Assembly: GCF_000204645.1 (NCBI RefSeq)
Contig: NC_015422.1
Location: 3,179,001-3,243,000 of the forward strand
Length of the DNA: 64,000 nucleotides
Direction of reading: 5' to 3'
Source of the DNA: Alicycliphilus denitrificans K601
GTDB lineage: Bacteria > Pseudomonadota > Gammaproteobacteria > Burkholderiales > Burkholderiaceae_C
Positions 970 through 61,631 of this stretch are shown in pieces. Below the pieces are notes generated by a model. That model made no database searches, was not told the DNA's origin, and saw nothing but the letters and a program-made list of their open reading frames with translations. The stretch's first letter is position 1. Every line of letters begins with the position of its first letter. The position numbers were made by a program, and so were the translations under genes.

Positions 970-1025
970 TCGCATGAATCGCTTGCCCATCCTGCGCTGG
1001 AAGCTATGGATTTTGATAGTCCTCG
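970..1025 (-). repeat. Dispersed palindromic repeat, copy a (inside ligE)
   Basis: Read on the minus strand this stretch contains ACTATCAAAATC, ATAGCTTCCAGCGC, GGGCAAGCG and CGAAAAACGC in that order. That is the same order as copies at 2758-2815, 51389-51441, 58224-58279 and 59243-59300. Here it lies in reverse orientation and supplies the ligE start codon and most of its signal peptide. Such AGCGCTT...AAGCGCT elements are, from memory, common in Comamonadaceae intergenic regions; I could not verify that here. Confidence 0.6.
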
Positions 1026-1828
1026 GCTGCATGGCGGCCCACGCCGCGCCGCCCTCCCCCACGCTGGCGCGGCGTTATCACACCGGCATCGACGTCACCG
1101 CCTACTGGGTCAGCGAGAAGTACGACGGCGTGCGCGCGCTGTGGACCGGCCGGCAGCTGCTGAGCCGCCAGGGCCTGCCGATACGCGCGCCCGCCTGGTT
1201 CACCGCGGGCTGGCCTGCCGAGCCGCTGGACGGCGAGCTCTGGGCCGGGCGCGGCCGGTTCGACGCCGCGCAGGCGGCCGTGGCGGCGGCCGCGCCCGAT
1301 GACGCGCAGTGGCGCGCACTGCGCTACATGGTGTTCGACCTGCCGGCCGCGCCCGGCGGTTTCGGCGCGCGCCTGCCCACCCTGCAGCACGCGGTGGCCG
1401 CGCTGGGCCAGCCCTGGGTGCAGGCCGCGCCGCAGTGGCGCGTGGCCACCCGTGCGCAGCTGATGGGGCAGCTGCGCGAGCACGAGAAGGCCGGCGCCGA
1501 GGGTCTGATGCTGCGCAGGGACGATGCGCCCTACCGCGGCGGGCGCAGCGAGGATCTGCTCAAGCTCAAGTCGTTCGAGGACGCCGAAGGCCTGGTCGTG
1601 GGCCACGTTCCCGGCCGGGGCAAGTACGCGGGGCAGACGGGCGCGCTGCTGGTCGCCATGCCCGGCGGACGGCGCTTCCGCCTGGGCAGCGGCCTGCCCG
1701 ATGCACTGCGCCGCCAGCCGCCGCCCGTGGGCTCGGTGGTGACCTACCGCTTCAACGGCACGCACGCGAGCGGGCTGCCGCGCTTCGCGCGCTTCTGGCG
1801 CGTGCGCGCGGACGAGCCGCTCAATTAG
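974..1828 (+). CDS. ligE: Periplasmic ATP-dependent DNA ligase (LigE type)
   Basis: Minimal ATP-dependent DNA ligase, 284 aa, probably acting in the periplasm, a type linked to DNA uptake or biofilm in some proteobacteria. Motif I is EKYDGVR, with the adenylated lysine at residue 49. Motif IV (EGLMLR), motif V (LLKLKSFEDAEG) and a short OB-fold ending in VTYRFNG follow; there are no extra domains. The start at 974 gives a clear signal peptide (MNRLPILRWK, then a LWILIVLGC core and AHA-A). An upstream in-frame ATG at 914 would bury it behind 20 polar residues. There is no strong Shine-Dalgarno. Much of the signal peptide overlaps a dispersed repeat. Confidence 0.85.
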   Translation: MNRLPILRWKLWILIVLGCMAAHAAPPSPTLARRYHTGIDVTAYWVSEKYDGVRALWTGRQLLSRQGLPIRAPAWFTAGWPAEPLDGELWAGRGRFDAAQAAVAAAAPDDAQWRALRYMVFDLPAAPGGFGARLPTLQHAVAALGQPWVQAAPQWRVATRAQLMGQLREHEKAGAEGLMLRRDDAPYRGGRSEDLLKLKSFEDAEGLVVGHVPGRGKYAGQTGALLVAMPGGRRFRLGSGLPDALRRQPPPVGSVVTYRFNGTHASGLPRFARFWRVRADEPLN

Positions 1829-2002
1829 GGCAAATTTCAGGCGGATACCACTCCCGCCGGCCTTGGCATGCGGCCGCGCAGGCACCGAAGGCCGCCATCA
1901 GAACCATACTCAAGGTCTTCGCAGCCGGAAACCGGCGCCCCGGACCCGCTGCCAACCTCATGCTCGCCACAACCCTAGCAGCGAGGAGGCAAGAGAAATC
2001 CC

Positions 2003-2752
2003 ATGGACTTTCTGACATCCGCCGAATTCTGGGCGGCCCTGGGCCAGGTCATCGTCATCGACATCATTCTGGGCGGCGACAACGCCGTGGTCATCGCGCT
2101 GGCCTGCCGCAGGCTGCCGCCGGCGCAGCGCAGCAAGGGCATCGTCTTCGGGACGGCGGGTGCGATCGTGCTGCGCGTGATCCTCATCGCCTTCGCGATG
2201 GCGCTGCTGGACATCCCCTTCCTGAAACTCGTCGGTGCCCTGCTGCTGGTGTGGATCGGCGTGAAGCTGCTGGCCCCCGACGAGGACGGCCATGGCGACA
2301 TCCAGGGCAGCGACAAGCTGCTGTCGGCCATCAAGACCATCGTCATGGCCGACCTGCTGATGAGCATGGACAACGTGATCGCCATCGCCGGCGCGGCCCA
2401 GAACTCCGGCGAGCATTCGCTGCTGCTCGTGATCCTGGGCCTGCTGTTCTCGATCCCGATCATCGTGCTGGGCAGCCAGCTGGTGATCAGGCTGATGGAA
2501 CGCTTCCCCCTCATCATCACGGCCGGCGGCATGCTGCTGGGCTGGATCGCGGGCGGCATGCTGGTCACGGACCCGGCCTTCGTGGACCCCGACCAGTGGA
2601 CCTGGATGCCCAAGCCGGTCACCGTCGATGCGCAAGGCGAGGCCGTGATCCCCGGCCCCCTGTACTGGGCGGCGCACGTCGCCGGAGCGCTGCTCGTGCT
2701 AGCCCTGGGCAAGCTGCTCGCCTCCCGCCAGAAAGGAGCGCTTGCCCATTGA
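2003..2752 (+). CDS. TerC family integral membrane protein (YjbE-like)
   Basis: Multi-pass inner-membrane protein of the TerC family, 249 aa. Relatives take part in manganese export or tellurite resistance. The two hallmark acidic helices are present: DIILGGDNAVVIALA near the N-terminus and ADLLMSMDNVIAIAGAA in the middle, whose Asp/Asn residues are thought to bind the metal. A GAGGAGG Shine-Dalgarno lies about 13 bases before the ATG, a slightly long gap. I looked for a yybP-ykoY manganese riboswitch in the 170 bases upstream and did not recognise one. Metal specificity is inferred. Confidence 0.85.
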   Translation: MDFLTSAEFWAALGQVIVIDIILGGDNAVVIALACRRLPPAQRSKGIVFGTAGAIVLRVILIAFAMALLDIPFLKLVGALLLVWIGVKLLAPDEDGHGDIQGSDKLLSAIKTIVMADLLMSMDNVIAIAGAAQNSGEHSLLLVILGLLFSIPIIVLGSQLVIRLMERFPLIITAGGMLLGWIAGGMLVTDPAFVDPDQWTWMPKPVTVDAQGEAVIPGPLYWAAHVAGALLVLALGKLLASRQKGALAH

Positions 2753-2757
2753 GCATC

Positions 2758-2815
2758 TTTTTAGCCTCCAGCGCTTGATGGACAAGCGCTAGCAGCTCTC
2801 AATAAAGTAGCATCA
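2758..2815 (-). repeat. Dispersed palindromic repeat, copy b, with hairpin
   Basis: Contains an 8-bp inverted repeat AGCGCTTG (2770-2777) / CAAGCGCT (2783-2790) with a 5-base loop, flanked by the repeat's outer motifs (GAGAGCTGCTAGCGC and GGAGGCTAAAAAG on the minus strand). This is the best-preserved copy in the window. It sits between the convergent terC and decarboxylase genes, where it may also end transcription. Confidence 0.65.
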
Positions 2816-5173
2816 GAGCGTGCGCCCGAAAGGCCCGTCGTCCCCCACCTGGACCAGCTTGCCCTTGGGCCTGGGGGCGTTGGCCGCGCGGCCCGTTTCG
2901 GCCACGCAGTCGGCGTAGTAGCTCACGTTGCCGTGGTCGTCCTCGATCTCCACCAGGCCGTGGATGTCGGTCTCGAAGCCCGGGCAGAGCTTGGCGAACT
3001 CGCGTGCGAACTTCAGGTAGTCCACGATCTTCTTGTTGAACACCTCGCCCGGGATCAGGAGCGGGATGCCCGGCGGGTACGGCGTGATCAGGCTCGTGGT
3101 GATGCGGCCTTCCAGCTGGTCGATGGCCACGCGCTCGGTCTTGCGCTGGGCGATGTGGGCGTAGGCGTCGCTGGGCTTCATCGCGGGCGTGAGGTCCGAG
3201 AGGTACATCTCGGTCGTCAGGCGCGCGATGTCGTACTTGGCGTAGAGCTGGTGCACGTGCTGGCACAGGTCCTTGAGGCCCATGCGCTCGTAGCGCTTGT
3301 GCTGCTGGCAGAACTCGGGAAGGATGCGCCACATGGGCTGGTTCTTCTCGTAGTCGTCCTTGAACTGCTGCAGCGCGGCCAGCAGCGTGTTCCAGCGGCC
3401 CTTGGTGATGCCGATGGTGAACATGATGAAGAAGCTGTACAGGCCCGTCTTCTCCACCACCACGCCGTGCTCGGCAAGGTACTTGGTGACGATGCTGGCG
3501 GGGATGCCGGTCTTGTCGAACTTGCCGTCCAGGTTCAGGCCGGGCGTGACGATCGTCGACTTGATCGGGTCCAGCATGTTGAAGCCGTCGGCCAGGTCGC
3601 CGAAGCCGTGCCACCGGGCCGCGCCGTTCTTCTTCTTGCCCTTGTTGCGGAAGATCCAGCTCTCGGCCGTGCCCAGGCCGTCGTCGACCAGTTCGTTGGG
3701 GCCCCAGACCTTGAACCACCAGTCATCCTTGCCGAACTCGTCCTCCACCTGGCGCATGGCGCGGCGGAAGTCCAGGGCCTCCACCAGGCTTTCCTCCACC
3801 AGCGCCGTGCCGCCGGGCGGCTCCATCATCGCGGCGGCCACGTCGCAGCTGGCGATGATGCTGTACTGCGGCGACGTGGAGGTGTGCATCAGGTAGGCCT
3901 CGTTGAAGAGGTGGCGGTCGAGCTTGGTGGTCTGCGAGTCCTGCACCAGCACGTGCGACGCCTGGCTGATGCCGGCCAGCAGCTTGTGGATGGACTGCGT
4001 GGCGTAGACCACCGAATGCCTGGGCCGCGCGCGCTTCTTGCCCATGGCGTGGAAGCTGCCGTAGAACGGGTGGAAGGCCGCGTGCGGCAGCCAGGCCTCG
4101 TCGAAGTGCAGGTTGTCCACGTAACCGTCGAGCATGCCCTTGATGGTCTCGGTGTTGTAGAGCACGCCGTCGTAGGTCGATTGCGTGAGGGTCAGCACGC
4201 GCGGCTTGACGGTCTTGGCGTCCACGCCCTTGAGCAGCGGGTTGGCGCGGATCTTGGCCTGGATGGTGGCGGGATCGAACTCAGCTTGAGGGATCGGGCC
4301 GATGATGCCGAAGTGGTTGCGCGTGGGCTTGAGGAACACGGGGATGGCCCCGGTCATGATGATGCTGTGCAGGATGGACTTGTGGCAGTTGCGGTCCACC
4401 ACCACCACGTCGCCCGGCGCCACCGTGTGGTGCCAGACCATCTTGTTGGACGTGCTGGTGCCGTTGGTCACGAAGAAGCAATGGTCGGCATTGAAGATGC
4501 GCGCCGCGTTGCGCTCGCTCTCGCCGATGGCGCCGTTGTGGTCCAGCAGCTGGCCCAGTTCCTCCACGGCGTTGCACACGTCGGCGCGCAGCATGTTCTC
4601 GCCGTAGAACTGGTGGTACATCTGGCCCACGGGGCTCTTGAGGAACGCCACGCCGCCCGAGTGGCCCGGGCAGTGCCAGCTGTACGAGCCGTCCTCGGCG
4701 TAGTCCAGCAGCGCCTTGAAGAACGGCGGCTGCACGCCCTCCAGGTAGCTCTTGGCCTCGCGGATGATGTGCTTGGCCACGAACTCGGGCGTGTCCTCGA
4801 ACATGTGGATGAAGCCGTGCAGCTCGCGCAGGATGTCGTTGGGCAGGTGGCGCGCGGTCTTGGTCTCGCCGTGCACGTAGATCGGCACCTCGGCGTTCTT
4901 GCGCCGCACCTCCGTGATGAAGCTGCGCAGGCTGTGGATGATGGGGTCCTGCCCCGTGCCCAGCGTGAACTCCTCGTCGTCGATCGACAGGATGAAGGCG
5001 CTGGCCCGGCTTTGCTGCTGGGCGAACTGCGACAGGTCGCCGTAGCTGGTCACGCCCAGCACCTCGAAGCCCTCGGCCTCGATGGCCTGCGCCAGCGCAC
5101 GGATGCCCAGGCCGGAGGTGTTCTCCGAACGATAGTCCTCGTCGATGATGACGATGGGAAAGCGGAATTTCAT
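2813..5173 (-). CDS. Orn/Lys/Arg decarboxylase (class III, PLP-dependent)
   Basis: Large cytoplasmic PLP-dependent amino acid decarboxylase, 786 aa, making a polyamine precursor or agmatine/cadaverine and consuming a proton. An N-terminal receiver-like wing domain (residues 1-130, IVIIDEDYRSENTSGLG) precedes the aspartate-aminotransferase-fold core. The cofactor lysine is in TQSIHKLLAG (about residue 397), the Asp contacting the pyridine nitrogen is in HFDEAWLP, and the family C-terminal domain follows. It is full length. It stands alone: no antiporter gene, which usually marks the acid-resistance forms, lies beside it, so a biosynthetic role is likelier. Which amino acid it uses cannot be read from the sequence. 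Confidence 0.85.
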   Translation of the reverse strand: MKFRFPIVIIDEDYRSENTSGLGIRALAQAIEAEGFEVLGVTSYGDLSQFAQQQSRASAFILSIDDEEFTLGTGQDPIIHSLRSFITEVRRKNAEVPIYVHGETKTARHLPNDILRELHGFIHMFEDTPEFVAKHIIREAKSYLEGVQPPFFKALLDYAEDGSYSWHCPGHSGGVAFLKSPVGQMYHQFYGENMLRADVCNAVEELGQLLDHNGAIGESERNAARIFNADHCFFVTNGTSTSNKMVWHHTVAPGDVVVVDRNCHKSILHSIIMTGAIPVFLKPTRNHFGIIGPIPQAEFDPATIQAKIRANPLLKGVDAKTVKPRVLTLTQSTYDGVLYNTETIKGMLDGYVDNLHFDEAWLPHAAFHPFYGSFHAMGKKRARPRHSVVYATQSIHKLLAGISQASHVLVQDSQTTKLDRHLFNEAYLMHTSTSPQYSIIASCDVAAAMMEPPGGTALVEESLVEALDFRRAMRQVEDEFGKDDWWFKVWGPNELVDDGLGTAESWIFRNKGKKKNGAARWHGFGDLADGFNMLDPIKSTIVTPGLNLDGKFDKTGIPASIVTKYLAEHGVVVEKTGLYSFFIMFTIGITKGRWNTLLAALQQFKDDYEKNQPMWRILPEFCQQHKRYERMGLKDLCQHVHQLYAKYDIARLTTEMYLSDLTPAMKPSDAYAHIAQRKTERVAIDQLEGRITTSLITPYPPGIPLLIPGEVFNKKIVDYLKFAREFAKLCPGFETDIHGLVEIEDDHGNVSYYADCVAETGRAANAPRPKGKLVQVGDDGPFGRTL

Positions 5174-5321
5174 GCGCTGCCTCCGGCAACCGGTCCAAAA
5201 AACGAAATAGGCGCGAAGTGTAAGGAAAATACGTATCTACCCTATGAACGCCCGCGCATTTCGCCCAGAATCGCTTGGTGTCAAAACAACAAGCCGCAAC
5301 ACGCGCAAAGGAGCCCTGCCT

Positions 5322-5753
5322 GTGAACCTGGATGCATCCACCCTCTGGTGGCTCATGGCGGGCGTCGCCGTGGCGATCGAGCTCCTGACCGGCACCTTCT
5401 ACCTGCTGATGCTGGCCATCGGCTTGGCCGCGGGCGCCGTGGCGGCCCACGCGGGCCTGGGCACCACGGCGCAGATCCTGGTGAGCGCCGTGGTGGGCGC
5501 CAGCACGGTGCTGGGCGCCTACCTCTCGCGCAGAAGCCGCCCGGGCGAACCCTCCGCGCGCGCCGAGCGCAGCGTCAACCTCGACGTGGGCGAGACCATC
5601 TACATCGACGCCTGGCAGGCTGACGGCACCGCCATCGTGAAATACCGCGGCGCGAGCTGGACCGCCATCCACCGCCCCGGCATCACGCCCGCTACCGGCC
5701 CGCACCGCGTGGCCGAGCTGGTGGGCAACCGCCTGCTGGTCGATCCGCTGTAG
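5322..5753 (+). CDS. NfeD family membrane protein (short form)
   Basis: Short NfeD-type protein of 143 aa: two to three N-terminal membrane helices (LWWLMAGVAVAIELLTG, FYLLMLAIGLAAG, ILVSAVVGASTVLG) followed by a small OB-fold (VNLDVGETIYIDAW, AIVKYRGASWTA). Partner of the SPFH protein encoded 69 bases downstream; such pairs organise membrane microdomains. I chose the GTG at 5322 because AAAGGAG lies just upstream. An in-frame ATG at 5244 would add 26 polar residues with no ribosome-binding site. Confidence 0.8.
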   Translation: MNLDASTLWWLMAGVAVAIELLTGTFYLLMLAIGLAAGAVAAHAGLGTTAQILVSAVVGASTVLGAYLSRRSRPGEPSARAERSVNLDVGETIYIDAWQADGTAIVKYRGASWTAIHRPGITPATGPHRVAELVGNRLLVDPL

Positions 5754-5822
5754 CGCGCGCACGCCATCCCGCCCTCTCCCTTCACCGCAGCCGCCCTTGC
5801 CGGCGCAGAAAGCCAAGAACCC

Positions 5823-6740
5823 ATGGAAGTCGCCATCGTCCTCTTCGTCATCGCCGTGATCTTCATCGCGCGCGCCGTCAAGATCGTGCCCCAGCAGCAC
5901 GCCTGGGTGAAGGAGCGCCTGGGCAAGTACGCGGGCACGCTCTCGCCCGGCCCCAAGTTCATCATCCCCTTCGTCGACCGCATCGCCTACAAGCACAGCC
6001 TCAAGGAGATCCCGCTGGACGTGCCCAGCCAGATCTGCATCACCAAGGACAACACCCAGCTGCAGGTGGACGGCATCCTGTACTTCCAGGTGACCGACCC
6101 CATGCGCGCCAGCTACGGCTCGTCGAACTACATCACGGCCGTGACGCAGCTGGCGCAGACCTCGCTGCGCTCCGTCATCGGCCGGCTGGAGCTGGACAAG
6201 ACCTTCGAGGAGCGCGACATGATCAACGCCCAGGTGGTGGCAGCGATCGACGAGGCAGCTCTGAACTGGGGCGTGAAGGTGCTGCGCTACGAGATCAAGG
6301 ACCTGACGCCGCCGGCCGAGATCCTGCGCGCCATGCAGGCGCAGATCACGGCCGAGCGCGAGAAGCGCGCGCTGATCGCCGCGTCCGAGGGCCGGCGCCA
6401 GGAGCAGATCAACATCGCCACCGGCGAGCGCGAGGCCTTCATCGCCCGCTCCGAGGGCGAGAAGCAGGCTGCCATCAACAACGCACAGGGCGAGGCCGCG
6501 GCCATCACCGCCGTGGCTGAGGCCACGGCCACCGCCATCGAACGCATCGCCGCCGCCATCAGCCAGCCCAGCGGCGACCAGGCCGTGCAGCTCAAGGTGG
6601 CCGAAAAGGCCGTCGACGCCTACAGCAAGGTGGCGGCGGACGCCACCACCACCCTCATCGTGCCCAGCAACATGACCGAGGTCTCGGCCCTGGTGTCCTC
6701 GGCCATGAAGATGATCCAGACCGGCCAGCAGCGCGGCTAG
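5823..6740 (+). CDS. qmcA: SPFH/band 7 stomatin-like protein (QmcA-like)
   Basis: Membrane-anchored SPFH-domain protein of 305 aa. One N-terminal helix (VAIVLFVIAVIFIARAV) is followed by the SPFH domain (QQHAWVKERLGKYAG, FIIPFVDRIAYK, SLKEIPLDVPSQICITKDN) and a long alpha-helical region rich in Ala, Glu and Arg (ITAEREKRALIAASEGRRQEQ). It ends in a conserved C-terminal stretch (TTLIVPSNMTEVSAL). Forms oligomeric rings that scaffold membrane proteins or help proteases such as FtsH. Operon partner of the upstream NfeD gene. Its stop overlaps the end of the convergent LysR gene. Confidence 0.88.
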   Translation: MEVAIVLFVIAVIFIARAVKIVPQQHAWVKERLGKYAGTLSPGPKFIIPFVDRIAYKHSLKEIPLDVPSQICITKDNTQLQVDGILYFQVTDPMRASYGSSNYITAVTQLAQTSLRSVIGRLELDKTFEERDMINAQVVAAIDEAALNWGVKVLRYEIKDLTPPAEILRAMQAQITAEREKRALIAASEGRRQEQINIATGEREAFIARSEGEKQAAINNAQGEAAAITAVAEATATAIERIAAAISQPSGDQAVQLKVAEKAVDAYSKVAADATTTLIVPSNMTEVSALVSSAMKMIQTGQQRG

Positions 6741-7645
6741 CCCGCGCTGCCCGCGCACTCGGCCACGAGCCAGTCCCGGAACGCCTTCACCAGCGGCGTC
6801 TGCGCCCTGGCCTCGGGGTAGACGAGGTAGTAGGCATCGGCGCTCACGAGCGCGTCCGGGAACAGTTCCTCCAGGCTGCCGTCGGCCAGCTCCTGCTCGA
6901 TCAGGAAGCGCGGCAGCAGCGCCGCGCCCTGGCCGCAGGCGGCCGCCTGGGCGATCATGGAGAAATGCTCCGCGCGCGGGCCGCGCAGTGCCACGGTGGT
7001 GGCGATGCCCACATGCTCGAACCATTCGGCCCACTGGGTGGGGCGCGTGCTCTGCTGCAGCAGCAGCACGCGCGTCAGGTCCTGCGGCGTGCCTATGCTA
7101 TGCCGCGCGCGAAAGCCGGGGCTTGCCACGGGCACGACCTCCTCGCGCATCAGGAACTCGCACACGGCCCCGGCCCAGGTAGGGGCGCCGAAGTGGATGG
7201 CGGCGTCCAGCGGGGTGCCGGCGAACTCGAAGGGCTCGGTGCGGGCCGCGAAGTTCACCGTCACGTCGGGGTGGCGGGCCATGAAAGCGCCCAGGCGCGG
7301 AATCAGCCAGCGCGTGCCCAGCGTGGGCAGCACGGCCAGGTTCAGCAGCCCGGCCGCGTGCGAGAACGCCATGGCCTTCTGCGTGCCAGCGGACAACTGC
7401 TGCAGCGCGGCGCGCACGTCGGCGGCATAGACGCGGCCCGCGTCGGTGAGCACGATGCGCTGGCGCACGCGGTGGAACAACGCCATGCCCAACTGCTGCT
7501 CCAGCTGCCGGATCTGGCGCGACACGGCGCTCTGCGTGAGGTGCAGCTCCTGCGCCGCGCGCGAGATGCTCGCGTGCCGCGCCGCAGCCTCGAAGGCCAG
7601 CAGGTCCGCGATCGGCGGCAGGAAGGTCTTGCGGAACATGGTCAT
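6737..7645 (-). CDS. LysR-type transcriptional regulator
   Basis: LysR family regulator of 302 aa, GcvA-like in layout. The N-terminal winged helix-turn-helix (ADLLAFEAAARHASISRAAQELHLTQSAVSRQIRQLEQQLG, residues about 12-50) is followed by a full effector-binding domain. Divergent from the ThDP enzyme gene at 7862 with 216 bases between, so it is the likely regulator of that gene; the dyad at 7744-7778 is the candidate binding site. Starts at 7645 and 7639 are both possible (MTMFRK or MFRK). The inducer is unknown. Confidence 0.85.
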   Translation of the reverse strand: MTMFRKTFLPPIADLLAFEAAARHASISRAAQELHLTQSAVSRQIRQLEQQLGMALFHRVRQRIVLTDAGRVYAADVRAALQQLSAGTQKAMAFSHAAGLLNLAVLPTLGTRWLIPRLGAFMARHPDVTVNFAARTEPFEFAGTPLDAAIHFGAPTWAGAVCEFLMREEVVPVASPGFRARHSIGTPQDLTRVLLLQQSTRPTQWAEWFEHVGIATTVALRGPRAEHFSMIAQAAACGQGAALLPRFLIEQELADGSLEELFPDALVSADAYYLVYPEARAQTPLVKAFRDWLVAECAGSAG

Positions 7646-7778: not shown

Positions 7779-7861
7779 CATTTTTTTGCTATGCACCGCG
7801 CCCCCGTGCGTGGATAGTGCCCCCTCGTGCAATGAACGCGATATTGAAGAAGGCGAAACCC

Positions 7862-11924: not shown

Positions 11925-12839
11925 TTAAGTTGACACCTCTGTCGAGGTGTCGCTGACGGCGAGTTGCCTCCAGTAGTTTGCCTCAGCTTCTGCCGGAGGG
12001 ATGCCCCCAATCGGCGTGAGCAGTCGGACGTGATTGAACCAGTGCACCCACTGCAGGGTGGCCAGCTCCACGGATTCCCTGGTCTTCCAGGGTCCCCGGC
12101 GGTGAATCAGCTCGGCCTTGTACAGCCCGTTGATGGTCTCGGCCAGTGCGTTGTCGTAGCTGTCACCCCGGCTGCCCACTGATGGCTGGATACCCGCCTG
12201 GTCCAAGCGTTCGGTGTAGCGTATGGAAACGTATTGACTGCCCCTGTCGGAATGGTGCGTCAAGGCATGGGCTGCTGGCTGGCGGTCATACAGCGCCTGC
12301 TCCAGCGCATCCAGCACGAAGTCCGTTTGCATGCTGCGGCTGACCCGCCAGCCCACGATGCGCCGGGCGTACACGTCCACCACGAAGGCCACGTACAACC
12401 AGCCCTGCCAGGTGGAGACGTAGGTGAAGTCCGACACCCACAGCTCGTTGGGCCGGCTGGCCTTGAATTGCCGGTTGACGTGGTCCAGCGGGCACGGTGC
12501 CGATGTGTCCGGCGTGGTGGTGCGCACTGTCTTGCCACGGCGTGCTCCTTGCAAGCCCATGGCACGCATCAGGCGCTCGACCGTGCAGCGCGCCACTGCG
12601 ATGCCCTCGCGGTTCATCTGCAGCCAGACCTTATCGGCCCCGTAGACCTGCCAGTTGGCGTGCCACACGCGCTGGATGTCGGCTTTCAAACCCTCGTCAC
12701 GCTGGACGCGTTGACTGCGCAGTTGCGGGTTGCGTTGCCGGGCTGCGTGGCGCCAGTAACACGACGGGGCCATCTGCAGCACCCGGCAGATGGGCTCGAC
12801 CCCGTAGTCATCACGGTGGCGGTCGATGTAGTTCTTCAA
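11925..12839 (-). CDS. IS3-family transposase OrfB (DDE integrase core)
   Basis: Catalytic subunit of 304 aa with an HTH_21-like N-terminus and an rve integrase core. The catalytic triad is visible: D137 (WVSDFTYV), D198 (HHSDRGSQY) and E234 ([10 protein letters not shown]). The frame opens with TTG overlapping the orfA stop in the tetramer TTGA, so it is translated by coupling or, as usual in this family, as an OrfAB fusion by -1 frameshifting. It appears intact. Confidence 0.9.
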
Positions 12840-13159
12840 GACTTCAATCGGCGGTCGAGCTCCGCCTGCGCGAAAAACGCGCTGGCCGTCTTCAGGATGT
12901 CGTTGGCCCGGCGCAGCTCTTTGACCTCACGCTCCAGTTCCTTGATGCGCTGGGCGTCTGCCGTGGTGGTGCCGGGGCGCTGGCCGCTGTCGACCTCGGC
13001 CTTCTTGACCCAGTCATTCAAGGTCTGCGGCACGCAGCCAATCTTGGGCGCAATCGATTCAATGGCTGCCCACAGCGACGGGTAGTCGGCTCGGTGCTCC
13101 TGCACCATGCGAACGGCGCGCTCGCGGACTTCCGGGGAGAACTTCGGTGACTTGTTCAT
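12836..13159 (-). CDS. IS3-family transposase OrfA
   Basis: 107-aa DNA-binding subunit. An HTH_Tnp_1 helix-turn-helix ([16 protein letters not shown] ... [13 protein letters not shown]) is followed by a leucine-zipper-like helix ([31 protein letters not shown]) that mediates oligomerisation and precedes the frameshift region. Four-base overlap with orfB. Confidence 0.9.
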
Positions 13160-51371: not shown

Positions 51372-51388
51372 GGTTTTGCTTTCCTTTT

Positions 51389-51441
51389 AATAGCTGCCAG
51401 AGCTTTTTGATAAAGCGCTACAGGCCGATTTGGCTTTTATT
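51389..51441 (+). repeat. Dispersed palindromic repeat, copy c
   Basis: Reads TTTTAATAGCTGCCAGAGC, then AAAGCGCTACAGGCCGATTTGGC, matching the consensus AATAGCTGCCAGCGC...AAGCGCTNNAGGCC. It lies between sbp and the ssuE remnant and overlaps the last few codons of sbp. Confidence 0.65.
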
Positions 51442-52456
51442 TCTTGGTGTAGATCTGGTCGAAGCTCGCGCCGTCGGCAAAGTGCTCCTTGTCGGCCCTG
51501 GCCCAGCCGCCGAACGCCTGGTCGATGGTCACGAGCGTGAGCTTGGGGAACTGCGCGTCGAACCTGGCCCTGGCCTTCTCGCTCGTGGGGCGGTAGTAGT
51601 TCTTGCCGGCGATCTCCTGGCCCTCGTCGGAGTACAGGTACTTCAGGTACTCCTCGGCCAGCGCACGGCTGCCCTTCTTGTCCACCACCTTGTCCACCAC
51701 GGCCACCGTGGGTTCGGCCAGGATGGAGAGCGACGGCACGACGATCTCGAACTTGTCCTTGCCGAACTCCTGGAGCGCCAGGAACGCCTCGTTCTCCCAG
51801 GCCAGCAGCACGTCGCCCACGCCGCGCTGCACGAAGGTGATGGTGGAGCCGCGCGCGCCGGTGTCGAGCACGGGCACGTTCTTGTAGAGCCTGCCCACGA
51901 AGTCCCTGGCCTGGGCGTCGCCGCCGTACTTGCGCTTGGCGAACTCCCACGCCGCCAGGTAGTTCCAGCGCGCGCCGCCACTGGTCTTGGGGTTGGGCGT
52001 GATCACCTGCACGCCGGGCCTGGCCAAGTCGTCCCAGTCCTTCAGGCCCTTGGGATTGCCCTTCTTGACCAGGAACACGATGGTCGAGGTGTAGGGCGCC
52101 GAGTTGTGCGGCAGGCGCTTCTGCCAGTCGGCAGCCAGCAGCCCGTGCCTGGCCAGCGCGTCCACGTCGCCGCCCAGGGCCAGCGTGGCCACGTCGGCGT
52201 CGATGCCGTCGATGATCGAGCGCGCCTGCTTGCCCGAGCCGCCGTGCGACTGGCGCAGTTGCACGTCCTGGCCCGTCCTGGCCTTCCAGTGTCTGGCGAA
52301 CGCCTGGTTGTACTCGGCGTACAGCTCGCGCGTCGGGTCGTAGGAGACGTTCAGGAACTGCGCCGGCTGCGCGAGCGACGGCAAAACCGTCAGGGACATG
52401 GCCCCGGCCAGGACGGCGGCCAGAGGAAACTTGATAAAGTGGCGGCGATTTTTCAT
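51437..52456 (-). CDS. sbp: Sulfate ABC transporter substrate-binding protein
   Basis: 339-aa periplasmic sulfate-binding protein with a signal peptide ([21 protein letters not shown]). Family motifs are [40 protein letters not shown]-like text ([14 protein letters not shown]), [16 protein letters not shown] and VVDK near the C-terminus. No cysT/cysW/cysA genes adjoin it, so it must work with a transporter encoded elsewhere. Divergent from yggX across 124 bases that contain an inverted repeat. Confidence 0.9.
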
Positions 52457-55470: not shown

Positions 55471-55504
55471 CCGACAACCGTCGCCGGGCCGCGCCACCAC
55501 TGGC

Positions 55505-55566
55505 GCATAAGCTTATCCGCATAAGGGAAGCACAAAACAATAGTTTGTTCCCATAAGCCGTGCTTC
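55505..55566 (+). promoter_or_regulatory. Repeat-rich promoter region of the sulfate assimilation operon
   Basis: Contains the palindrome ATAAGCTTAT (55507-55516), three CATAAG copies (55506, 55520, 55552), AACAA/TTGTT arms (55536-55549) and GAAGCAC/GTGCTTC arms (55527-55566), all within 75 bases of the first ATG of the operon. The natural candidate for a CysB-binding region; binding is inferred. Confidence 0.45.
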
Positions 55567-55579
55567 TACAGTCGCGGCC

Positions 55580-56383
55580 ATGCCCGATTTCGCGTTCATC
55601 CTCGCTGGTTTCGCCGTCGGCCTCATCGTGGGCCTGACCGGCGTGGGCGGCGGCTCGCTGATGACGCCGGTGCTGATCTTCGTCTTCGGCGTCAAGCCCA
55701 ACCTGGCCGTGGGCACGGACCTGCTGTTCGCCGCCTTCACCAAGCTGGGCGGCACGCTCGGCCTGGCACGCCAGCGCCTGGTGCCCTGGCGCGTGGTGGC
55801 CCAGCTGTGCGCGGGCAGCATCCCCGCCGCCCTGCTGGCGCTGTGGGCGCTGCGCCACCTGGGGCCGGACAGCGCCGCCGCCCAGCGCCTCATGACCACC
55901 ACGCTGGGCGCGGCCCTGCTGCTCACGGCGGCCGCCACCTTCTACAAGGTGCTGGTGTTCTCGCCCGAGCGCGCCGCCGCCGAGGCGGCACGCCGCCGCG
56001 CCCAGTCCGCCGACGCCACCCGGCCTCGCCACTGGAGCCTGCCGGTGCTGCTGGGCGCGGTGATCGGCATGCTGGTCACCTTCACCTCGGTGGGCGCGGG
56101 CGCCATCGGCGTGTCGGTGCTGCTGCTGGTGTTCCCGCACCTGCCGCTGCCGCGCATCATCGCCGCCGACATCGCCTACGCCGTGCCGCTGACGCTGGTG
56201 GCGGGGCTGGGCCATGCCTCGCTGGGCTCGGTGAACTGGCCGCTCCTGGGCCTGCTGCTCGCCGGCTCGCTGCCGGGCATATGGCTGGGCTCGCGCCTGG
56301 TCGCGCGCACGCCCGAGCGCCTGATCCGTTCCGTCCTGTCCGTGCTGCTGGCCTGGGCCGGGGCCAAGCTGGTTTTGATCTGA
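55580..56383 (+). CDS. Sulfite exporter TauE/SafE (TSUP) family permease
   Basis: 267-aa membrane protein with about eight helices. The two half-repeats begin GLIVGLTGVGGGSLMTPVLIFVFG and GMLVTFTSVGAGAIGVSVLLLVF, the TSUP signature. First gene of the sulfate assimilation operon, 26 bases before cysI, so it probably moves sulfate or sulfite across the inner membrane. Import rather than export is likely from context. Confidence 0.85.
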   Translation: MPDFAFILAGFAVGLIVGLTGVGGGSLMTPVLIFVFGVKPNLAVGTDLLFAAFTKLGGTLGLARQRLVPWRVVAQLCAGSIPAALLALWALRHLGPDSAAAQRLMTTTLGAALLLTAAATFYKVLVFSPERAAAEAARRRAQSADATRPRHWSLPVLLGAVIGMLVTFTSVGAGAIGVSVLLLVFPHLPLPRIIAADIAYAVPLTLVAGLGHASLGSVNWPLLGLLLAGSLPGIWLGSRLVARTPERLIRSVLSVLLAWAGAKLVLI

Positions 56384-56409
56384 ATCCCTGATTTTTCTCT
56401 CCCCACGCC

Positions 56410-58197
56410 ATGTACCAATACACCGACTTCGACCGCCAATTCGTGAAGCTGCGCGCGCAGCAGTTCCGCGACCAGTTGGAGCGCTGGCAGCGCGGCGAGC
56501 TGACCGACGAGCAGCTCCTGCCCCTGCGCCTGCAAAACGGCTGGTACATCCAGCGCTACGCGCCCATGGCGCGCATCGCCGTGCCCTATGGCGAGATCAG
56601 CAGCCTGCAGCTGCGCACGCTGGGCCGCATCGCCCGCGAATACGACAAGCCCGACCCCGAGCTGCTGGCCCGCGCCCAGGCCACGCAGGACCAGCTCGAA
56701 GCCTCGCAGCCCGGCCAGACCCTGCCCGCGCCGCCGCTCAAGTACGGCTACGGCCACTTCACCACGCGCACCAACTGCCAGTTCAACTGGATCCCGATCA
56801 CCAAGGCGGCCGACGTGATGGACCTGCTGGCCAGCGTGTGCATGCACGGCATCCAGACCAGCGGCAACGACATCCGCAACATCACCTGCGACGCCTGGGA
56901 GGGCATCGCCGAGGACGGCATCGTGGACTGCCGCCCGTTTGCCGAGATCACGCGCCAGTGGAGCTCGCTGCACCCCGAGTTCAGCTACCTGCCGCGCAAG
57001 TTCAAGATCGCCTTCAACGGCGCCGCCGAGGACCGCGCCGCCATCGGCTGGTACGACATCGGCCTGCAGGCGCTCAGGAACGACGCGGGCGAAGTCGGCT
57101 TCACCGTGAAGGTGGGTGGCGGCATGGGGCGCACGCCCATCGTGGGCAGCGTGGTGCGCGAGTTCCTGCCCTGGGACCAGTTGCTCAACTACATCGAGGC
57201 CATCGTGCGCGTGTACAACGGCTACGGCCGGCGCGACAACAAGTGGAAGGCGCGCATCAAGATCCTCGTGAAGAGCGAGGGACAGGCCTTCATCGACGCG
57301 GTGGAGAAGGAATACCGCGCCATCGTCGACCTGGACGGCGCCCCTCACACCATCACCCAGGCCGAACTCGACCGCGTGACGAGCCACTTCGTGGTGCCCG
57401 AGCTCAAGAGCGCCGGCCTGCCAGCCAAGGTGGACCCGCAGGGCCAGCTCTACCAGCGCTGGCTGCGCCAGAACGTGCGCGGCCACCGCCTGCCGGGCAT
57501 GAAGACCGTGACCCTGTCGTTCAAGCGCCCGGGCTTCGCCCCCGGCGACGCCGACGCCGACACGCTGGACGCCCTGGCCCAGCTGGCCGAGCAGTTCAGC
57601 GCGTCCGAGGCGCGCCTGACCCACGAGCAGAACCTGATGCTGCCCTGGGTGTTCGAGTCCGACCTGCCCGCGCTGTACGAGGCCGCGCGCAAGCTGGGCC
57701 TGGCGCAGCCCAACATCGGCCTGCTGACCGACATGATCTCCTGCCCGGGCGGGGACTTCTGCTCGCTGGCCAACGCGCGCTCGCTGCACATCGCCGCCGT
57801 CGTGACCGAGCGCTACCAGGACCTGGACGAGCTGTTCGACATCGGCCCGATCGACCTGCACATGAGCGGCTGCATCAACAGCTGCGGCCACCACCACAGC
57901 GGCCACATCGGCATCCTGGGCGTGGACAAGGACGGCAAGGAGTGGTACCAGATCACGCTCGGCGGCGCGGACGGCTCCCAGCTCTCCGGCCCCGCGATCG
58001 GCGGCAAGGTGGTCGGCCCCTCGTTCACCGCGGCCGAGGTGCCCGACGTGATCGAGGCGCTGCTGGACACCTTCCGCAGCCTGCGCCAGAGCGGCGAGCT
58101 GTTCATCGACACGCTGCGCCGCGTCGGCCACGACCCGTTCAAGCAGGCGGCCAACGCGGCGCGCCACCCCAAGGTCGAGGAAGCCCAGGCGCTGTGA
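56410..58197 (+). CDS. cysI: Assimilatory sulfite reductase (siroheme hemoprotein), CysI
   Basis: 595-aa sulfite reductase that reduces sulfite to sulfide. Two ferredoxin-like half domains are followed by siroheme/4Fe-4S sites; the four cluster cysteines are in MISCPGGDFCSLA and SGCINSCGHHHSGHIG. Basic siroheme-contact residues lie in TTRTNCQFNW and GNDIRNITCDAWEG. No cysJ flavoprotein accompanies it, so reduced ferredoxin is the likely donor (fdxA and a reductase lie 3.6 kb downstream). Full length. Confidence 0.92.
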   Translation: MYQYTDFDRQFVKLRAQQFRDQLERWQRGELTDEQLLPLRLQNGWYIQRYAPMARIAVPYGEISSLQLRTLGRIAREYDKPDPELLARAQATQDQLEASQPGQTLPAPPLKYGYGHFTTRTNCQFNWIPITKAADVMDLLASVCMHGIQTSGNDIRNITCDAWEGIAEDGIVDCRPFAEITRQWSSLHPEFSYLPRKFKIAFNGAAEDRAAIGWYDIGLQALRNDAGEVGFTVKVGGGMGRTPIVGSVVREFLPWDQLLNYIEAIVRVYNGYGRRDNKWKARIKILVKSEGQAFIDAVEKEYRAIVDLDGAPHTITQAELDRVTSHFVVPELKSAGLPAKVDPQGQLYQRWLRQNVRGHRLPGMKTVTLSFKRPGFAPGDADADTLDALAQLAEQFSASEARLTHEQNLMLPWVFESDLPALYEAARKLGLAQPNIGLLTDMISCPGGDFCSLANARSLHIAAVVTERYQDLDELFDIGPIDLHMSGCINSCGHHHSGHIGILGVDKDGKEWYQITLGGADGSQLSGPAIGGKVVGPSFTAAEVPDVIEALLDTFRSLRQSGELFIDTLRRVGHDPFKQAANAARHPKVEEAQAL

Positions 58198-58223
58198 CCA
58201 AAACGATGCCCACGGAGAAGAAT

Positions 58224-58279
58224 GCTATGAAAATCATTGCTGCCGACGCAGTACCAGAAAGCGCTGGAGCCGAAAAAAC
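58224..58279 (+). repeat. Dispersed palindromic repeat, copy d (forms the DUF934 start)
   Basis: GCTATGAAAATCATTGCTGCC, an 18-base variable middle, then AAAGCGCTGGAGCCGAAAAAA, in the same order as the other copies. The ATG inside GCTATGAAAATC is the start codon of the DUF934 gene, so about the first 17 residues are repeat-encoded. Confidence 0.6.
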
Positions 58280-58622
58280 CCTGCAGATCCCCAACGATGC
58301 CGAGCTGGCCGAGCTGGTCGCCAGCGGCGCGCTGGAGGGCGTGCAGCGCGTGGAGCTGCAGTTCCCCAAGTTCACCGACGGCCGCGCCTACAGCCAGGCG
58401 CTGCTGCTGCGCCGGCGCTACAGGTTTGCGGGCGACATCCGCGCCACGGGCGACGTGCTGATCGACCAGCTCGTGCACATGCACCGCAGCGGCTTCACCA
58501 GCGCCGTGCTGGCCCCGGGCGTCAATGCCGATGCCGCGCAGCGCCAGTTCGACCGCTACAGCGCCTTCTACCAGGGCGACGTGCTGGAGCCCCGCCCCCT
58601 GTTCGCACGGGAGGCCGCATGA
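58227..58622 (+). CDS. DUF934 family protein of the sulfate operon
   Basis: 131-aa cytoplasmic protein. The conserved core is VQRVELQFPKFTDGRAYSQALLLRRRYRFAGDIRATGDVLIDQLVHMHRSGF and FYQGDVLEPRPLF. DUF934 genes are almost always next to cysI/cysH; a role as an accessory or electron-transfer factor for sulfite reductase is assumed but unproven. Starts at 58227 with GGAGAAG upstream; its N-terminus comes from the dispersed repeat. Overlaps cysH by 4 bases (ATGA). Confidence 0.85.
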   Translation: MKIIAADAVPESAGAEKTLQIPNDAELAELVASGALEGVQRVELQFPKFTDGRAYSQALLLRRRYRFAGDIRATGDVLIDQLVHMHRSGFTSAVLAPGVNADAAQRQFDRYSAFYQGDVLEPRPLFAREAA

Positions 58623-59242
58623 GCACCCTGGACCTCGCACGCATCAACGCCGAACTGGGCCGCGACGCGCCCGGCCTCGTGAAATGGGCCCTGGGCCTGA
58701 ACCAGGCGCCCATAGTCACCACCAACTTCCGCCCGTTCGAGGCGGTGATCCTGCACCTGGTCACGCGGGTACAGCCCGACGTCCCGGTCATCTGGATGGA
58801 CAACGGCTACAACACCGAGGCCACCTACCGCTACGCCGACGAGGTGACCCGGCTGCTCGGGCTCAACCTGCGCATCTACCTGCCGCTGCGCTCGCGCGCG
58901 CACCGCGAGGCGGTGGATGGTCCTGTGCCCGCGCTTCATGAGCCGCGCCACGCCGCCTTCACCGAGGAGGTGAAGCTCGAACCCTTCGCCCGCGCGCTGC
59001 GTGAGACCGCACCCAAGGTCTGGTTCACCGCGCTGCGCGCCACCGACAGCGCCGTGCGCGCGCAGATGGACCCGGTGAGCATCAACCCCGACGGCCTCAT
59101 CAAGGTCGCGCCGCTGCTGCACTGGACGTCCAGGGACCTGCACCAGTACTGCGAGGCCCACGGCCTGCCCAACAACTTCGACTACGTGGACCCGACCAAG
59201 GGCGAGGAACAGCGCGAATGCGGCCTGCACCTGGCCCACTGA
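58619..59242 (+). CDS. cysH: PAPS/APS reductase CysH
   Basis: 207-aa thioredoxin- or glutaredoxin-dependent reductase making sulfite from (P)APS. The PP-loop-like domain has VTTNFRPFEAV and VIWMDNGYNTEATYRYAD; the catalytic C-terminal motif is KGEEQRECGLH. The CC and CxxC cysteines that bind the 4Fe-4S cluster of APS reductases are absent, and the region between is shorter than in E. coli CysH. It therefore looks like a cluster-free, PAPS-type enzyme, although no cysC kinase gene is visible here. Confidence 0.85.
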   Translation: MSTLDLARINAELGRDAPGLVKWALGLNQAPIVTTNFRPFEAVILHLVTRVQPDVPVIWMDNGYNTEATYRYADEVTRLLGLNLRIYLPLRSRAHREAVDGPVPALHEPRHAAFTEEVKLEPFARALRETAPKVWFTALRATDSAVRAQMDPVSINPDGLIKVAPLLHWTSRDLHQYCEAHGLPNNFDYVDPTKGEEQRECGLHLAH

Positions 59243-59300
59243 AGAAAAACGATAGCTGCCAGCGCAGGCCCCACGAACGCTTCAGCCCGATTTGATTGGA
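59243..59300 (+). repeat. Dispersed palindromic repeat, copy e (cysH-cysD gap)
   Basis: GAAAAACGATAGCTGCCAGCGC, a short middle, then GAACGCTTCAGCCCGATTTG. It fills almost the whole 65-base gap between cysH and cysD, ending just before the cysD Shine-Dalgarno (GGAAAG). Confidence 0.6.
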
Positions 59301-59307
59301 AAGACAA

Positions 59308-60264
59308 ATGAACGCCCGAGTTGACACCTCCGTGCTCACGCACCTGAGCAACCAGCACCTGGACGCGCTGGAGGAAGAAACCATCTTCATCCTGCGCGAA
59401 GTGGCCGCCGCCTTCGAGCGCCCCGCGCTGCTGTTCTCCGGCGGCAAGGACTCGCTGGTCATGCTCCGGTGCGCCGAAAAGGCCTTCATGGATTCGAAAG
59501 GCCCCTCCGGCAGCCGGGGCCGCATCCCCTACCCGCTCTTGATGATCGACACCGGCCACAACTTCCCCGAGGTGACCGACTTCCGCGACCAGCGCGCCAG
59601 GGAGCTCGGCGCCGAGCTCATCGTGCGCAGCGTCGAAGACTCCATGGCGCGCGGCACGGTGCGCCTGGCGCACCCGGGCGAGAGCCGCAACGTGCACCAG
59701 TCGGTCACGCTGCTCGAAGCCATCGAGGAATTCCGCTTCGACGCGCTGATCGGCGGCGCGCGCCGCGACGAGGAAAAGGCCCGGGCCAAGGAGCGCATCT
59801 TCTCCCACCGCGACGGCTTCGGCCAATGGCAACCCAAGGCCCAGCGGCCCGAGCTCTGGACGCTGTTCAACACCCGCATCGCCCCGGGCGAGCACTTCCG
59901 CGTGTTCCCGATCAGCAACTGGACCGAGCTGGACGTGTGGCAGTACATCGACCGCGAGGCGATCGCCCTGCCCAGCCTCTACTACGCGCACCAGCGCCAG
60001 GTGGTAGAGCGCCGGGGCCTGCTGGTGCCCGTCACGCCGCTCACCCCGCCCAAGGACGGCGAGCGGGTCGAGACCCGCACCGTGCGCTTTCGCACCGTGG
60101 GCGACATCACCTGCACCTGCCCGGTGGAAAGCCCCGCCGCCAGCGCCGCCGAGATCGTGATCGAGACCCTGGCCGCCGAGGTCAGCGAACGCGGCGCCAC
60201 GCGCATGGACGACAAGACCTCCGACGCCTCGATGGAAAAGCGTAAGAAAGACGGGTACTTCTGA
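59308..60264 (+). CDS. cysD: Sulfate adenylyltransferase subunit 2 CysD
   Basis: 318-aa catalytic subunit of ATP sulfurylase. The PP-loop is LLFSGGKDSLVML; other family motifs are MIDTGHNFPEVTDFRD, GGARRDEEKARAKERIFSHR, FPISNWTELDVWQYI and the C-terminal DKTSDASMEKRKKDGYF. Works with the GTPase CysN, whose ATG overlaps its stop (TGATG). Start 59308 with GGAAAG; a TTG at 59296 is unlikely. Confidence 0.93.
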   Translation: MNARVDTSVLTHLSNQHLDALEEETIFILREVAAAFERPALLFSGGKDSLVMLRCAEKAFMDSKGPSGSRGRIPYPLLMIDTGHNFPEVTDFRDQRARELGAELIVRSVEDSMARGTVRLAHPGESRNVHQSVTLLEAIEEFRFDALIGGARRDEEKARAKERIFSHRDGFGQWQPKAQRPELWTLFNTRIAPGEHFRVFPISNWTELDVWQYIDREAIALPSLYYAHQRQVVERRGLLVPVTPLTPPKDGERVETRTVRFRTVGDITCTCPVESPAASAAEIVIETLAAEVSERGATRMDDKTSDASMEKRKKDGYF

Positions 60265-61631
60265 TGACTACCAATTTAATAGCTGATACCGCAACAGCGG
60301 CGGGCGCCGCAGCCAGGAACGACCATGTTTCCGCGCTGAAGTTCATCACTTGCGGCAGCGTGGACGACGGCAAGAGCACGCTGATCGGCCGCCTGCTCGT
60401 GGACAGCCGCGCCGTGCTGCAGGACCACTTGGCGGGCGTGCAGCGCGGCGGCGAGGTGGACCTGGCGCTGCTCACCGACGGCCTCTCGGCCGAGCGCGAG
60501 CAAGGCATCACCATCGACGTGGCCTACCGCTACTTCGCCACCGAGGCGCGCAAGTTCATCATCGGCGACGCGCCCGGCCACGAGCAGTACACGCGCAACA
60601 TGGTCACCGCCGCCTCGCAGGCCGACGCCGCCGTGGTGCTGGTGGACGCGACCAAGCTCGACTGGCAGAACCCCCGGCTCGCGCTGCTGCCGCAGACGCG
60701 CCGCCACAGCCTGCTCGTGCACCTGCTGCGCGTGCATTCGCTGGTGTTCGCCGTGAACAAGCTCGACGCCGTGGCCGACCCGGCCCTGGCGTTCGCGCAC
60801 ATCCGCGCCGCGCTGCAGCAATTCGCGCAGGATGCGGGCATCACCGTGGCCGCCACCGTGCCCGTCTCGGCCCTCAAGGGCTGGAACGTGGTCGACGCCC
60901 GGCCGGGCTGGTGCGGCTACGAGGGCAGCAGCCTGCTGCAGATCCTGGAGCTGCTGCCCCATACCCCGGCCGACGCGCACCTGCCGCTGGCCTTCCCGGT
61001 GCAGTGGGTGGAGAAGTTCTCCTCGTCCTCCGACACGCGCCAGGGCCGGCGCGTGTTCTGGGGCCGCGTGGCCGCGGGCGGCGCCCGGGTGGGCGCGCAG
61101 GTACAGGTCTTCCCCAGCGGCCAGCGCGCCGCCATCGCTCAGGTGCTGGACCACGCGCGCCGCCCCGGCGGCATCCAGGCGGGCGGCAGCGCCGGCATCG
61201 TGCTGGACCGCGAGGTGGACGTCTCGCGCGGCGACTGGATCGTCGCCGCGCCCACGCCCGCCGCCCAGGCCGCGGAAGACGATTTCGACACCCCGGCGGA
61301 GCAGCCCAGCTGGCCCGGCCGGCGCGAGCTCGGCGCCACCGTCGCCTGGATGGACGACGAACCCCTGGTCGCCGGCCGCGTGTACTGGGCGCTGCACGGC
61401 CACCGCTGGGTCAAGGCCAAGCTGCGCCGCGTGGTGCACCGCCTGGACATCCACACCCTGGCCGAGCAGGACGCCACGCAGCTCGAACCCAACGCCATCG
61501 GCCACGTGGAACTGCTGCTGCAGGAGAGCGTGCCCGCTGCGCCGTTCGAGAAAGCGCGCGTGCTCGGCTCCATGATCCTGGTCGACACCGCAAGCCACAA
61601 GACGGCCGGCGCCGTGCTGGTGCGGACCTAG
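60264..61631 (+). CDS. cysN: Sulfate adenylyltransferase subunit 1 CysN (GTPase)
   Basis: 455-aa EF-Tu-like GTPase subunit that drives APS formation. G1 is GSVDDGKST, G3 is GDAPGHEQY, G4 is NKLD (VFAVNKLDAV), and G5 lies near PVSALKG. Beta-barrel domains II and III follow. No CysC APS-kinase domain is fused. The first 15 or so residues (MTTNLIADTATAAGAAA) are poorly conserved and overlap a degenerate repeat copy (60264-60305). Last gene of the cys operon. Confidence 0.92.
   Translation: MTTNLIADTATAAGAAARNDHVSALKFITCGSVDDGKSTLIGRLLVDSRAVLQDHLAGVQRGGEVDLALLTDGLSAEREQGITIDVAYRYFATEARKFIIGDAPGHEQYTRNMVTAASQADAAVVLVDATKLDWQNPRLALLPQTRRHSLLVHLLRVHSLVFAVNKLDAVADPALAFAHIRAALQQFAQDAGITVAATVPVSALKGWNVVDARPGWCGYEGSSLLQILELLPHTPADAHLPLAFPVQWVEKFSSSSDTRQGRRVFWGRVAAGGARVGAQVQVFPSGQRAAIAQVLDHARRPGGIQAGGSAGIVLDREVDVSRGDWIVAAPTPAAQAAEDDFDTPAEQPSWPGRRELGATVAWMDDEPLVAGRVYWALHGHRWVKAKLRRVVHRLDIHTLAEQDATQLEPNAIGHVELLLQESVPAAPFEKARVLGSMILVDTASHKTAGAVLVRT

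Follow-up and report, generated by a model that had tools for sequence, protein, structure and literature searches.

A degenerate, partly palindromic motif of about 60 bp occurs six times in the window studied here, by which we mean the whole 64-kb stretch C1:3179001-3243000 of the Alicycliphilus denitrificans K601 chromosome, and samples of that chromosome carry it at 140-170 copies per Mb. Where copies lie within genes they are conserved and have evolved through substitution, and in lpxB and a rRNA methyltransferase gene this has happened without added length. The initial annotation, made from the window alone, had recognised the six stretches and read them as a repeat taken over into coding sequence; the pattern is larger than was thought there, and the mechanism looks different. 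That the motif is maintained in place is, in our judgement, strongly supported. The explanation taken as a whole, namely that this is a DNA recognition motif, sitting at mostly fixed loci and kept via a trans-acting protein, rather than an active mobile repeat, we consider evenly balanced between right and wrong, and DNA uptake as the force behind it is a testable guess to which we give a little less than an even chance.

Copy number and architecture of the motif

The searched genome comprises 5,070,751 bases in two contigs, the chromosome accounting for 4,995,263 of these. With at most one mismatch allowed, the pattern ATAGCTGCYAGCGC matched the genome 240 times, compared with a single match for the same pattern read backwards; in the window alone, with three mismatches, the excess was mild (27 against 18.4 expected). 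A 61-column matrix was fitted on C1:2.4-3.6 Mb (1.2 Mb, the window included), and its scores are given in bits throughout. At 14 bits or more this 1.2 Mb returned 301 raw matches, which merge to 169 elements, versus 8 in the reversed sequence, and a further 300-kb chromosome sample, from which 10 of the 30 initial seed loci had come, returned 50 motif matches versus none when reversed. The reversed controls were thus nearly empty, and the motif is strongly over-represented on the chromosome, in both orientations. These counts bear out, far beyond chance, the dispersed and partly palindromic family put forward in the initial annotation, whose proposed check for genome-wide enrichment finds the motif strongly enriched. 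The 75-kb plasmid holds no match at 20 bits or more and two at 14 bits or more. In viral_contigs, 26 stretches carry an exact 17-mer match to the motif, as a raw count.

The consensus reads approximately GCTATTnAAwwnATAGCTGCCAGCGCTTGnnnnnnAAGCGCTrGAGGCCnwTTTcACT and is degenerate, with about 0.66 bits per position and one invariant column in the 61-column model of 43 copies. The motif comes in two forms. Both are imperfect palindromes with A/T tracts on either side, the short one spanning about 60 bp around a 5-base centre and the long one about 106 bp around a centre of 45-46 bases. Among 56 pairs of facing half-sites no more than 400 bases apart, 44 belong to the 5-base-centre class and 10 to the 45-46-base class, the others having centres of 23 and 112 bases; a scan for centres of 40-55 bases, which used the arms only, ignored the centre and covered our own stretches together with other loci, yielded 21 long forms, of which 18 have a 46-base and 3 a 45-base centre.

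Short-form copies (n = 43) display no covariation in the stem, with 78.8% paired versus 78.2% after shuffling, and RNAalifold predicted no pair for this form. When dependencies between columns were examined over 195 elements, an analysis whose two top rows are artefacts with near-zero spread, the strongest proved to be local and to lie chiefly in the A/T tracts on the outside, in which AAA and TTT are interchangeable. Taken together, this interchange and the lack of covariation in the short-form stem fit recognition of duplex DNA better than recognition of RNA. Pairing in the long form is maintained by compensatory changes: across 18 equal-length copies (13 of our own, 5 from relatives) the covariation score was 0.266 compared with 0.169 for shuffled alignments, none of 500 shuffles scored as high, and sliding gave at most 0.127. 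For the long forms RNAalifold itself returned just 9 arm pairs. The long-form centre (for example at G000:C1:3068299 and 2656192) contains a covarying inverted repeat around GGTTTCA...TGAAACC.

Sites within and between genes

According to a simple in-house gene caller, which mis-set the ligE and cysN starts, the 169 elements divide into 110 between genes, 44 within them, 12 over stops and 3 over starts, and the density per kb is 0.75 in convergent gaps, 0.63 in tandem gaps and 0.10 in divergent gaps. The 44 coding copies include 27 that are antisense, with 21 of the 44 sharing one antisense frame, and the translated copies are enriched in A, Q and S. Their host genes include those for YgiQ, MoeA, DapE, AddA, KDO transferase, SelO, RlmD, PrmB and NadE, and further LpxK, PgeF, the PDH E2 subunit, TilS, DsbB and LpxB, the names being those of the best NCBIfam match (some below the curated cut-off) for 20 of the 44 coding rows. 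Four 50-kb bins, in two blocks, are without any copy; two stretches of about 100 kb with no copy at 14 bits (G000:C1:2850000-2950000 and 3450000-3550000) are possibly acquired islands.

Maintenance at the level of nucleotides is apparent in five genes, dapE, lpxB, nadE, prmB and the rRNA methyltransferase gene, which we aligned with orthologues from 30 genomes of the family. Genomes were classed by their pattern matches as motif-rich (at least 80, our own genome counted in), middle (15-79) or motif-poor (fewer). At 20 bits or more, 87 of the 97 motif-rich rows and none of the 44 motif-poor rows have the motif at the aligned position, the individual figures being 18 of 20 and 0 of 9 for dapE, 19 of 20 and 0 of 10 for lpxB, 14 of 18 and 0 of 6 for nadE, 17 of 19 and 0 of 9 for prmB, and 19 of 20 and 0 of 10 for the methyltransferase gene. 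In the motif-bearing rows the score lies 2.6 to 8.5 standard deviations over that of synonymous redraws, and in 85 of these 87 rows it exceeds every one of the 200 redraws. Similarly, the 38 matches of at least 20 bits in the predicted genes of the 1.2 Mb fell to none after a single within-gene synonymous codon shuffle.

The lengths of the compared segments tell whether residues were gained with the motif. For lpxB, each of the 19 motif-bearing rows and 8 of the 10 motif-poor rows have a segment of 42 residues, and the methyltransferase segment has 42 with the motif compared with 41-45 in motif-poor rows; neither shows a gain. The nadE segment measures 42-43 residues with the motif versus mostly 38-39, i.e. 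mostly 3-5 more; for dapE, 11 of the 18 rows with the motif have 42 residues (range 38-61 over the 18) versus 36-38 in motif-poor rows, a gain of mostly 4-6 residues and up to about 24 in one row; and that of prmB has 36-46 residues with the motif versus 36-40, a gain of 0 to about 10. The lengths in lpxB and the methyltransferase therefore speak clearly against insertion, whilst those in dapE, nadE and prmB allow for some added residues.

Orthologous loci were also paired between six genomes of four genera, in a set where pairs are non-independent, each being countable from both sides, and where motif sites were detected by the same matrix. The motif is kept in 260 of the 297 pairs with anchored flanks, so that its positions are mostly fixed. 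Among the 37 motif-less pairs the length difference is zero in 19 and within -9 to +22 bases in 8 more; the remaining 10 all concern one locus of genome G172 and differ by 241-291 bases. The insertion difference expected at orthologous loci of repetitive extragenic palindromic (REP) sequences, miniature inverted-repeat transposable elements (MITEs) or Rickettsia palindromic elements (RPEs) was not found in these 37 pairs, and a present-day mobile REP or MITE insertion is disfavoured since pairs with and without the site are often equal in length. Three of the 12 orthologous groups have near-random identity (0.27-0.38) in both flanks of 60 bases where the informative motif columns have 0.71-0.88, a comparison conditioned on the motif being found. 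The same G172, a motif-rich genome, has an lpxB and a nearby methyltransferase gene (L235, L281) that lack the motif at near-equal length, possibly as a block imported from a motif-poor relative.

Distribution, mechanism and competing explanations

Presence of the coding sites follows the genome-wide motif count. Over 60 genomes, the LpxB site (at least 15 bits) is present in 23 of 24 rich, 11 of 14 middle and 1 of 22 poor genomes, and the methyltransferase site in 23 of 24, 12 of 14 and 2 of 21, one of the 60 having no row for the latter. On the LpxB tree, which contains the motif columns and whose bootstrap had not settled, the poor state requires at least 8 changes along well-supported branches. 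Counted by eye, 27 of 200 family genomes have at least 80 matches, whilst in a class sample of 184 genomes the 182 from outside the family have at most 9 each. Among the 25 named genomes covered, those of Simplicispira, Acidovorax, Diaphorobacter, Paenacidovorax, Ottowia and Comamonas have 95 to 496 matches, several Acidovorax species carrying the motif in common. Counts are low in Variovorax, Ramlibacter and Pseudacidovorax (2 to 8), Melaminivora (11), Xenophilus (20) and Polaromonas C04 (29), and genomes G194, G159 and G130 are motif-poor members of genera having richer ones.

We infer that a trans-acting protein of the Comamonadaceae may bind this motif, recognising it as duplex DNA. Sites would then stay mostly at fixed loci, with gain and decay occurring largely through base substitution, and within a gene the motif would dictate the codons and amino acids and, in some cases, the start codon. 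The maintaining force could be biased DNA uptake together with recombination, i.e. a molecular drive, of which we are less sure than of the binding protein; such a drive would be the best explanation for several hundred sites being kept against codon preference. Fractionally less probable than uptake in general is the specific proposal that the Comamonadaceae have a third, independent uptake-sequence system based upon a long, palindromic, A-tract-flanked motif that is written by substitution and lost with its receptor. Under such a system, housekeeping enzymes would have had start codons, N-termini and internal segments set by the motif, contrary to codon preference, and the motif would decay in species losing the cognate receptor.

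The closest analogy is with the DNA uptake sequences (DUS) of Neisseriaceae and the uptake signal sequences (USS) of Pasteurellaceae. In the parts of the sources drawn on here, these have hundreds of chromosomal copies in both orientations, within and between genes and in inverted-repeat forms, overlap reading frames and start codons, are common to several species and have been proposed to arise by gradual drive (PMC1939737, PMC2346458). The cited passages argue that the uptake sequences of both families are gradually driven motifs (PMC1939737), and state for Neisseria that about 30 open reading frames (ORFs) start with an uptake sequence and that reverse-complement copies prevail in genes (PMC2346458); among our 44 coding copies, 27 are antisense. 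DUS and USS measure 9-12 bp, unlike our motif, which is about 60 bp, degenerate and palindromic. Natural transformation is described for Verminephrobacter eiseniae and two Acidovorax species, and uptake by V. eiseniae seemed sequence-selective, with no motif named in the passages covered (PMC4212676). Our survey of the open-access literature, subscription papers and preprints being outside its scope, turned up no paper that we recognised as describing this motif.

Several observations weigh against the proposed recognition and uptake mechanism. Known uptake sequences are far shorter and stricter than this motif, and the 61-column model contains no short exact core of 9-12 bases of the kind these have. 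In the part of the source that we cite, DNA from other Acidovorax species failed to transform the Acidovorax strains tested (PMC4212676), even though the motif is common to several species of this genus. The covarying pairs in the long-form centre are not required of a duplex-binding site, and weaker long-range column dependencies exist that are unmatched to the stem (e.g. columns -18 and 43, z 9.5). To these must be added the extra residues that accompany the motif in dapE, in nadE and in some of the prmB rows. Nor do candidate genes clearly track the motif: ComEC, considered as a partner lost from motif-poor genomes, was found in 60 of 61 genomes (all but G034), rich and poor alike, with long open frames in motif-poor G194, G159 and G130 and also in G160, and was rejected in this role. 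The LigE-like ligase, considered as a marker of the system, occurs in 19 of 25 rich, 8 of 14 middle and 12 of 22 poor genomes and was likewise set aside, there being no clear association.

In genome G003 the comEC match falls in three places and different frames (G003:C1:1836740-1837544, L387), which may reflect a broken gene or a sequencing error; this genome, which does bear the motif, also has a reduced motif count and a dapE without it. As a single case, the coincidence of the split comEC with the reduced count is suggestive.

Among the alternatives, the most serious is that the motif is a site for a chromosome-organising or nucleoid protein (gyrase, as in bacterial interspersed mosaic elements (BIMEs), or a dedicated architectural protein) that is selected site by site and has no role in uptake. 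A palindrome with A/T tracts is in keeping with this, as are the absence of matches of at least 20 bits from the plasmid and the four empty 50-kb bins, and the depletion of divergent gaps (0.10 per kb) would be expected if the sites act where transcription supercoils accumulate. Selection would, however, have to be effective at several hundred sites and strong enough to alter amino acids of housekeeping enzymes, and species such as G194 and G159 have near-background counts although their congeners are rich; we regard this explanation as unlikely. A transcribed RNA hairpin, acting as a terminator or as a processing or stability element, would draw upon the hairpin potential, the placement mainly between tandem and convergent genes and the long-form covariation that no shuffle equalled. 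Tracts of AAA and TTT would be different things as RNA, though, the short-form stem does not covary and more than half of the coding copies (27 of 44) are antisense; we consider a hairpin very improbable. We give next to no weight to the suggestion that coding copies are chance products of alanine- and glutamine-rich protein stretches: the richness of translated copies in A, Q and S is what it would predict, but it is already contradicted by the loss of all 38 real matches upon one synonymous shuffle and by the identical site recurring across many genera.

An origin by insertion has to be considered in both a recent and an ancient version. The initial annotation had likened the copies to REP-type elements and to the RPEs. 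The resemblance to REP sequences and their REP-associated tyrosine transposases (RAYTs) is real with respect to high copy number, palindromy and location, 110 of 169 elements being intergenic; REP sequences, as described in the portion of the source cited, lie mainly between tandem and convergent genes with some in ORFs (PMC3733652). It breaks down at the ends of the consensus, which lack a GTAG or CGTC tetranucleotide, at the transposase and at the motif-less sites, which are often of equal length. A single Y1_Tnp match exists in the genome, and the best motif score in its 3.3-kb locus is 13.3 bits; we found no RAYT that is flanked by the motif and so have no such partner for it. This sole match (L031, G000:C1:849028-849354) is flanked by inverted repeats of a different type, TTAATTGGGGTCGGATTCCAATTA, unrelated to the motif. 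Like the RPEs, the motif forms a palindromic family that is translated in frame within housekeeping genes; the RPEs are described as in-frame insertions in the passages used (PMC3733652), unlike the motif, which is without added length in two of five genes, with some in three, and is kept at synonymous sites. The BRE repeat is similarly dispersed in Bordetella and Comamonadaceae with some copies in ORFs, but its description in the part consulted, of about 90 bp, partly tandem with variable number and at most 29 copies per genome, differs from that of our motif (PMC3110155).

Insertion of a REP-type or Rickettsia-like element as the origin of the copies is not supported, given the 19 of 37 motif-less pairs of equal length, the lack of gain in lpxB and the methyltransferase and the nucleotide-level upkeep across genera. 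Its ancient version, in which a REP- or MITE-type element dispersed ahead of the divergence of the genera and was afterwards retained or domesticated, so that present sites are old insertions, would accommodate the copy number, the palindromy, the two discrete size classes, the REP-like placement, the longer dapE, nadE and prmB segments and the one G172 locus differing by 241-291 bases. The same equal lengths tell against it, as do the preservation of the motif at synonymous positions and the sole Y1 transposase locus, from which the motif is absent at a threshold of 14 bits, and we think it distinctly improbable, less so than a hairpin.

If the proposed recognition motif is real, codons and amino acids at the same place in the housekeeping enzymes of many genera are picked by a genome-wide DNA motif, rather than by protein function, and a mainly environmental bacterial family has an unrecognised global DNA-recognition system. 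The suspected selectivity of uptake in Verminephrobacter would then become directly testable, and the case would caution that repeats within genes need not be insertions.

The six copies in the window and their genes

The six stretches that the initial annotation had grouped under one motif are the six best matrix matches in the 64 kb (Table 1), the next best place scoring 10.5 bits and the reversed window giving one match that reaches 19.9 bits. Judged on score alone, copy 6 is marginal.

Table 1. Motif copies of the window and adjoining genes, in window coordinates
Feature	Position	Strand	Remarks
Motif copy 1	960..1020	-	36.8 bits; + strand holds ATG 974 and first codons of a signal-peptide-like N-terminus
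ligE-like DNA ligase	974..1828	+	284 aa; Pfam DNA_ligase_OB_2 above cut-off, DNA_ligase_A_M just below
TerC-family gene	2003-2752	+	stop codon at one edge of copy 2
Motif copy 2	2752..2812	-	61.4 bits; fills gap between two convergent stop codons
Orn/Lys/Arg decarboxylase gene	2813-5173	-	stop codon at other edge of copy 2
Motif copy 3	51377..51437	+	57.6 bits; outside gene calls
Solute-binding-protein gene	51437-52456	-	copy 3 directly downstream, touching its stop codon
Motif copy 4	58223..58283	+	42.1 bits; holds ATG 58227 and first 19 codons of DUF934 gene
DUF934 protein	58227..58622	+	131 aa, MKIIAADAVPESAGAEKTLQI...
PAPS-reductase-family gene, taken as cysH	58619-59242	+	upstream of copy 5
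Motif copy 5	59239..59299	+	38.5 bits; outside gene calls, from cysH stop to just before cysD
PAPS-reductase-family gene, taken as cysD	59308-60264	+	after copy 5
Motif copy 6	60266..60326	+	22.9 bits; spans first codons of gene taken as cysN
GTP-binding protein taken as CysN	60264..61631	+	ATG 60264, two bases before copy 6; N-terminus MTTNLIADTATAAG... read from motif

It had also been claimed that copies are translated at gene starts, and this holds: ligE (974, a possible start within copy 1) and DUF934 (58227) can start inside the motif, and for cysN the possible start at 60264 precedes it by two bases. The gene at copy 1 we take to be a small ATP-dependent DNA ligase of the ligE type. At 15 bits or more, the start of cysN bears the motif in 35 of the 72 orthologues (up to 54 bits), and 11 of the 77 cysD orthologues are preceded by it. 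Among 80 DUF934 orthologues, 32 have it at the start, with an identical offset in all 32 and ATG at the codon concerned in 29 of them (CTC, CTC and ATT in the other three). Around the ligE start it is found in 9 of 30 orthologues, these being the loci examined out of 39 LigE matches, with the G160 N-terminus extrapolated from residue 88. Its presence at the DUF934, cysN and ligE starts of orthologues indicates that these N-termini are indeed spelled by the motif sequence. Orthologues free of the motif had been expected to differ in their N-terminal residues, and this was only partly so, the motif-free Variovorax DUF934 protein reading LKILAAE compared with MKIIAAS where the motif is present, such that the aligned residues are similar.

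An Rfam scan of the window gave no gathering-level match at the six elements. When 57800-60600 was searched with E values up to 5, one weak match fell on copy 6 (16 bits where gathering is 60, E 4.8), which we take as chance. Elsewhere in the window, 12765-12881 on the minus strand matches the Rfam ALIL pseudoknot (RF01497) with 111 bits, a structure usually tied to insertion sequences.

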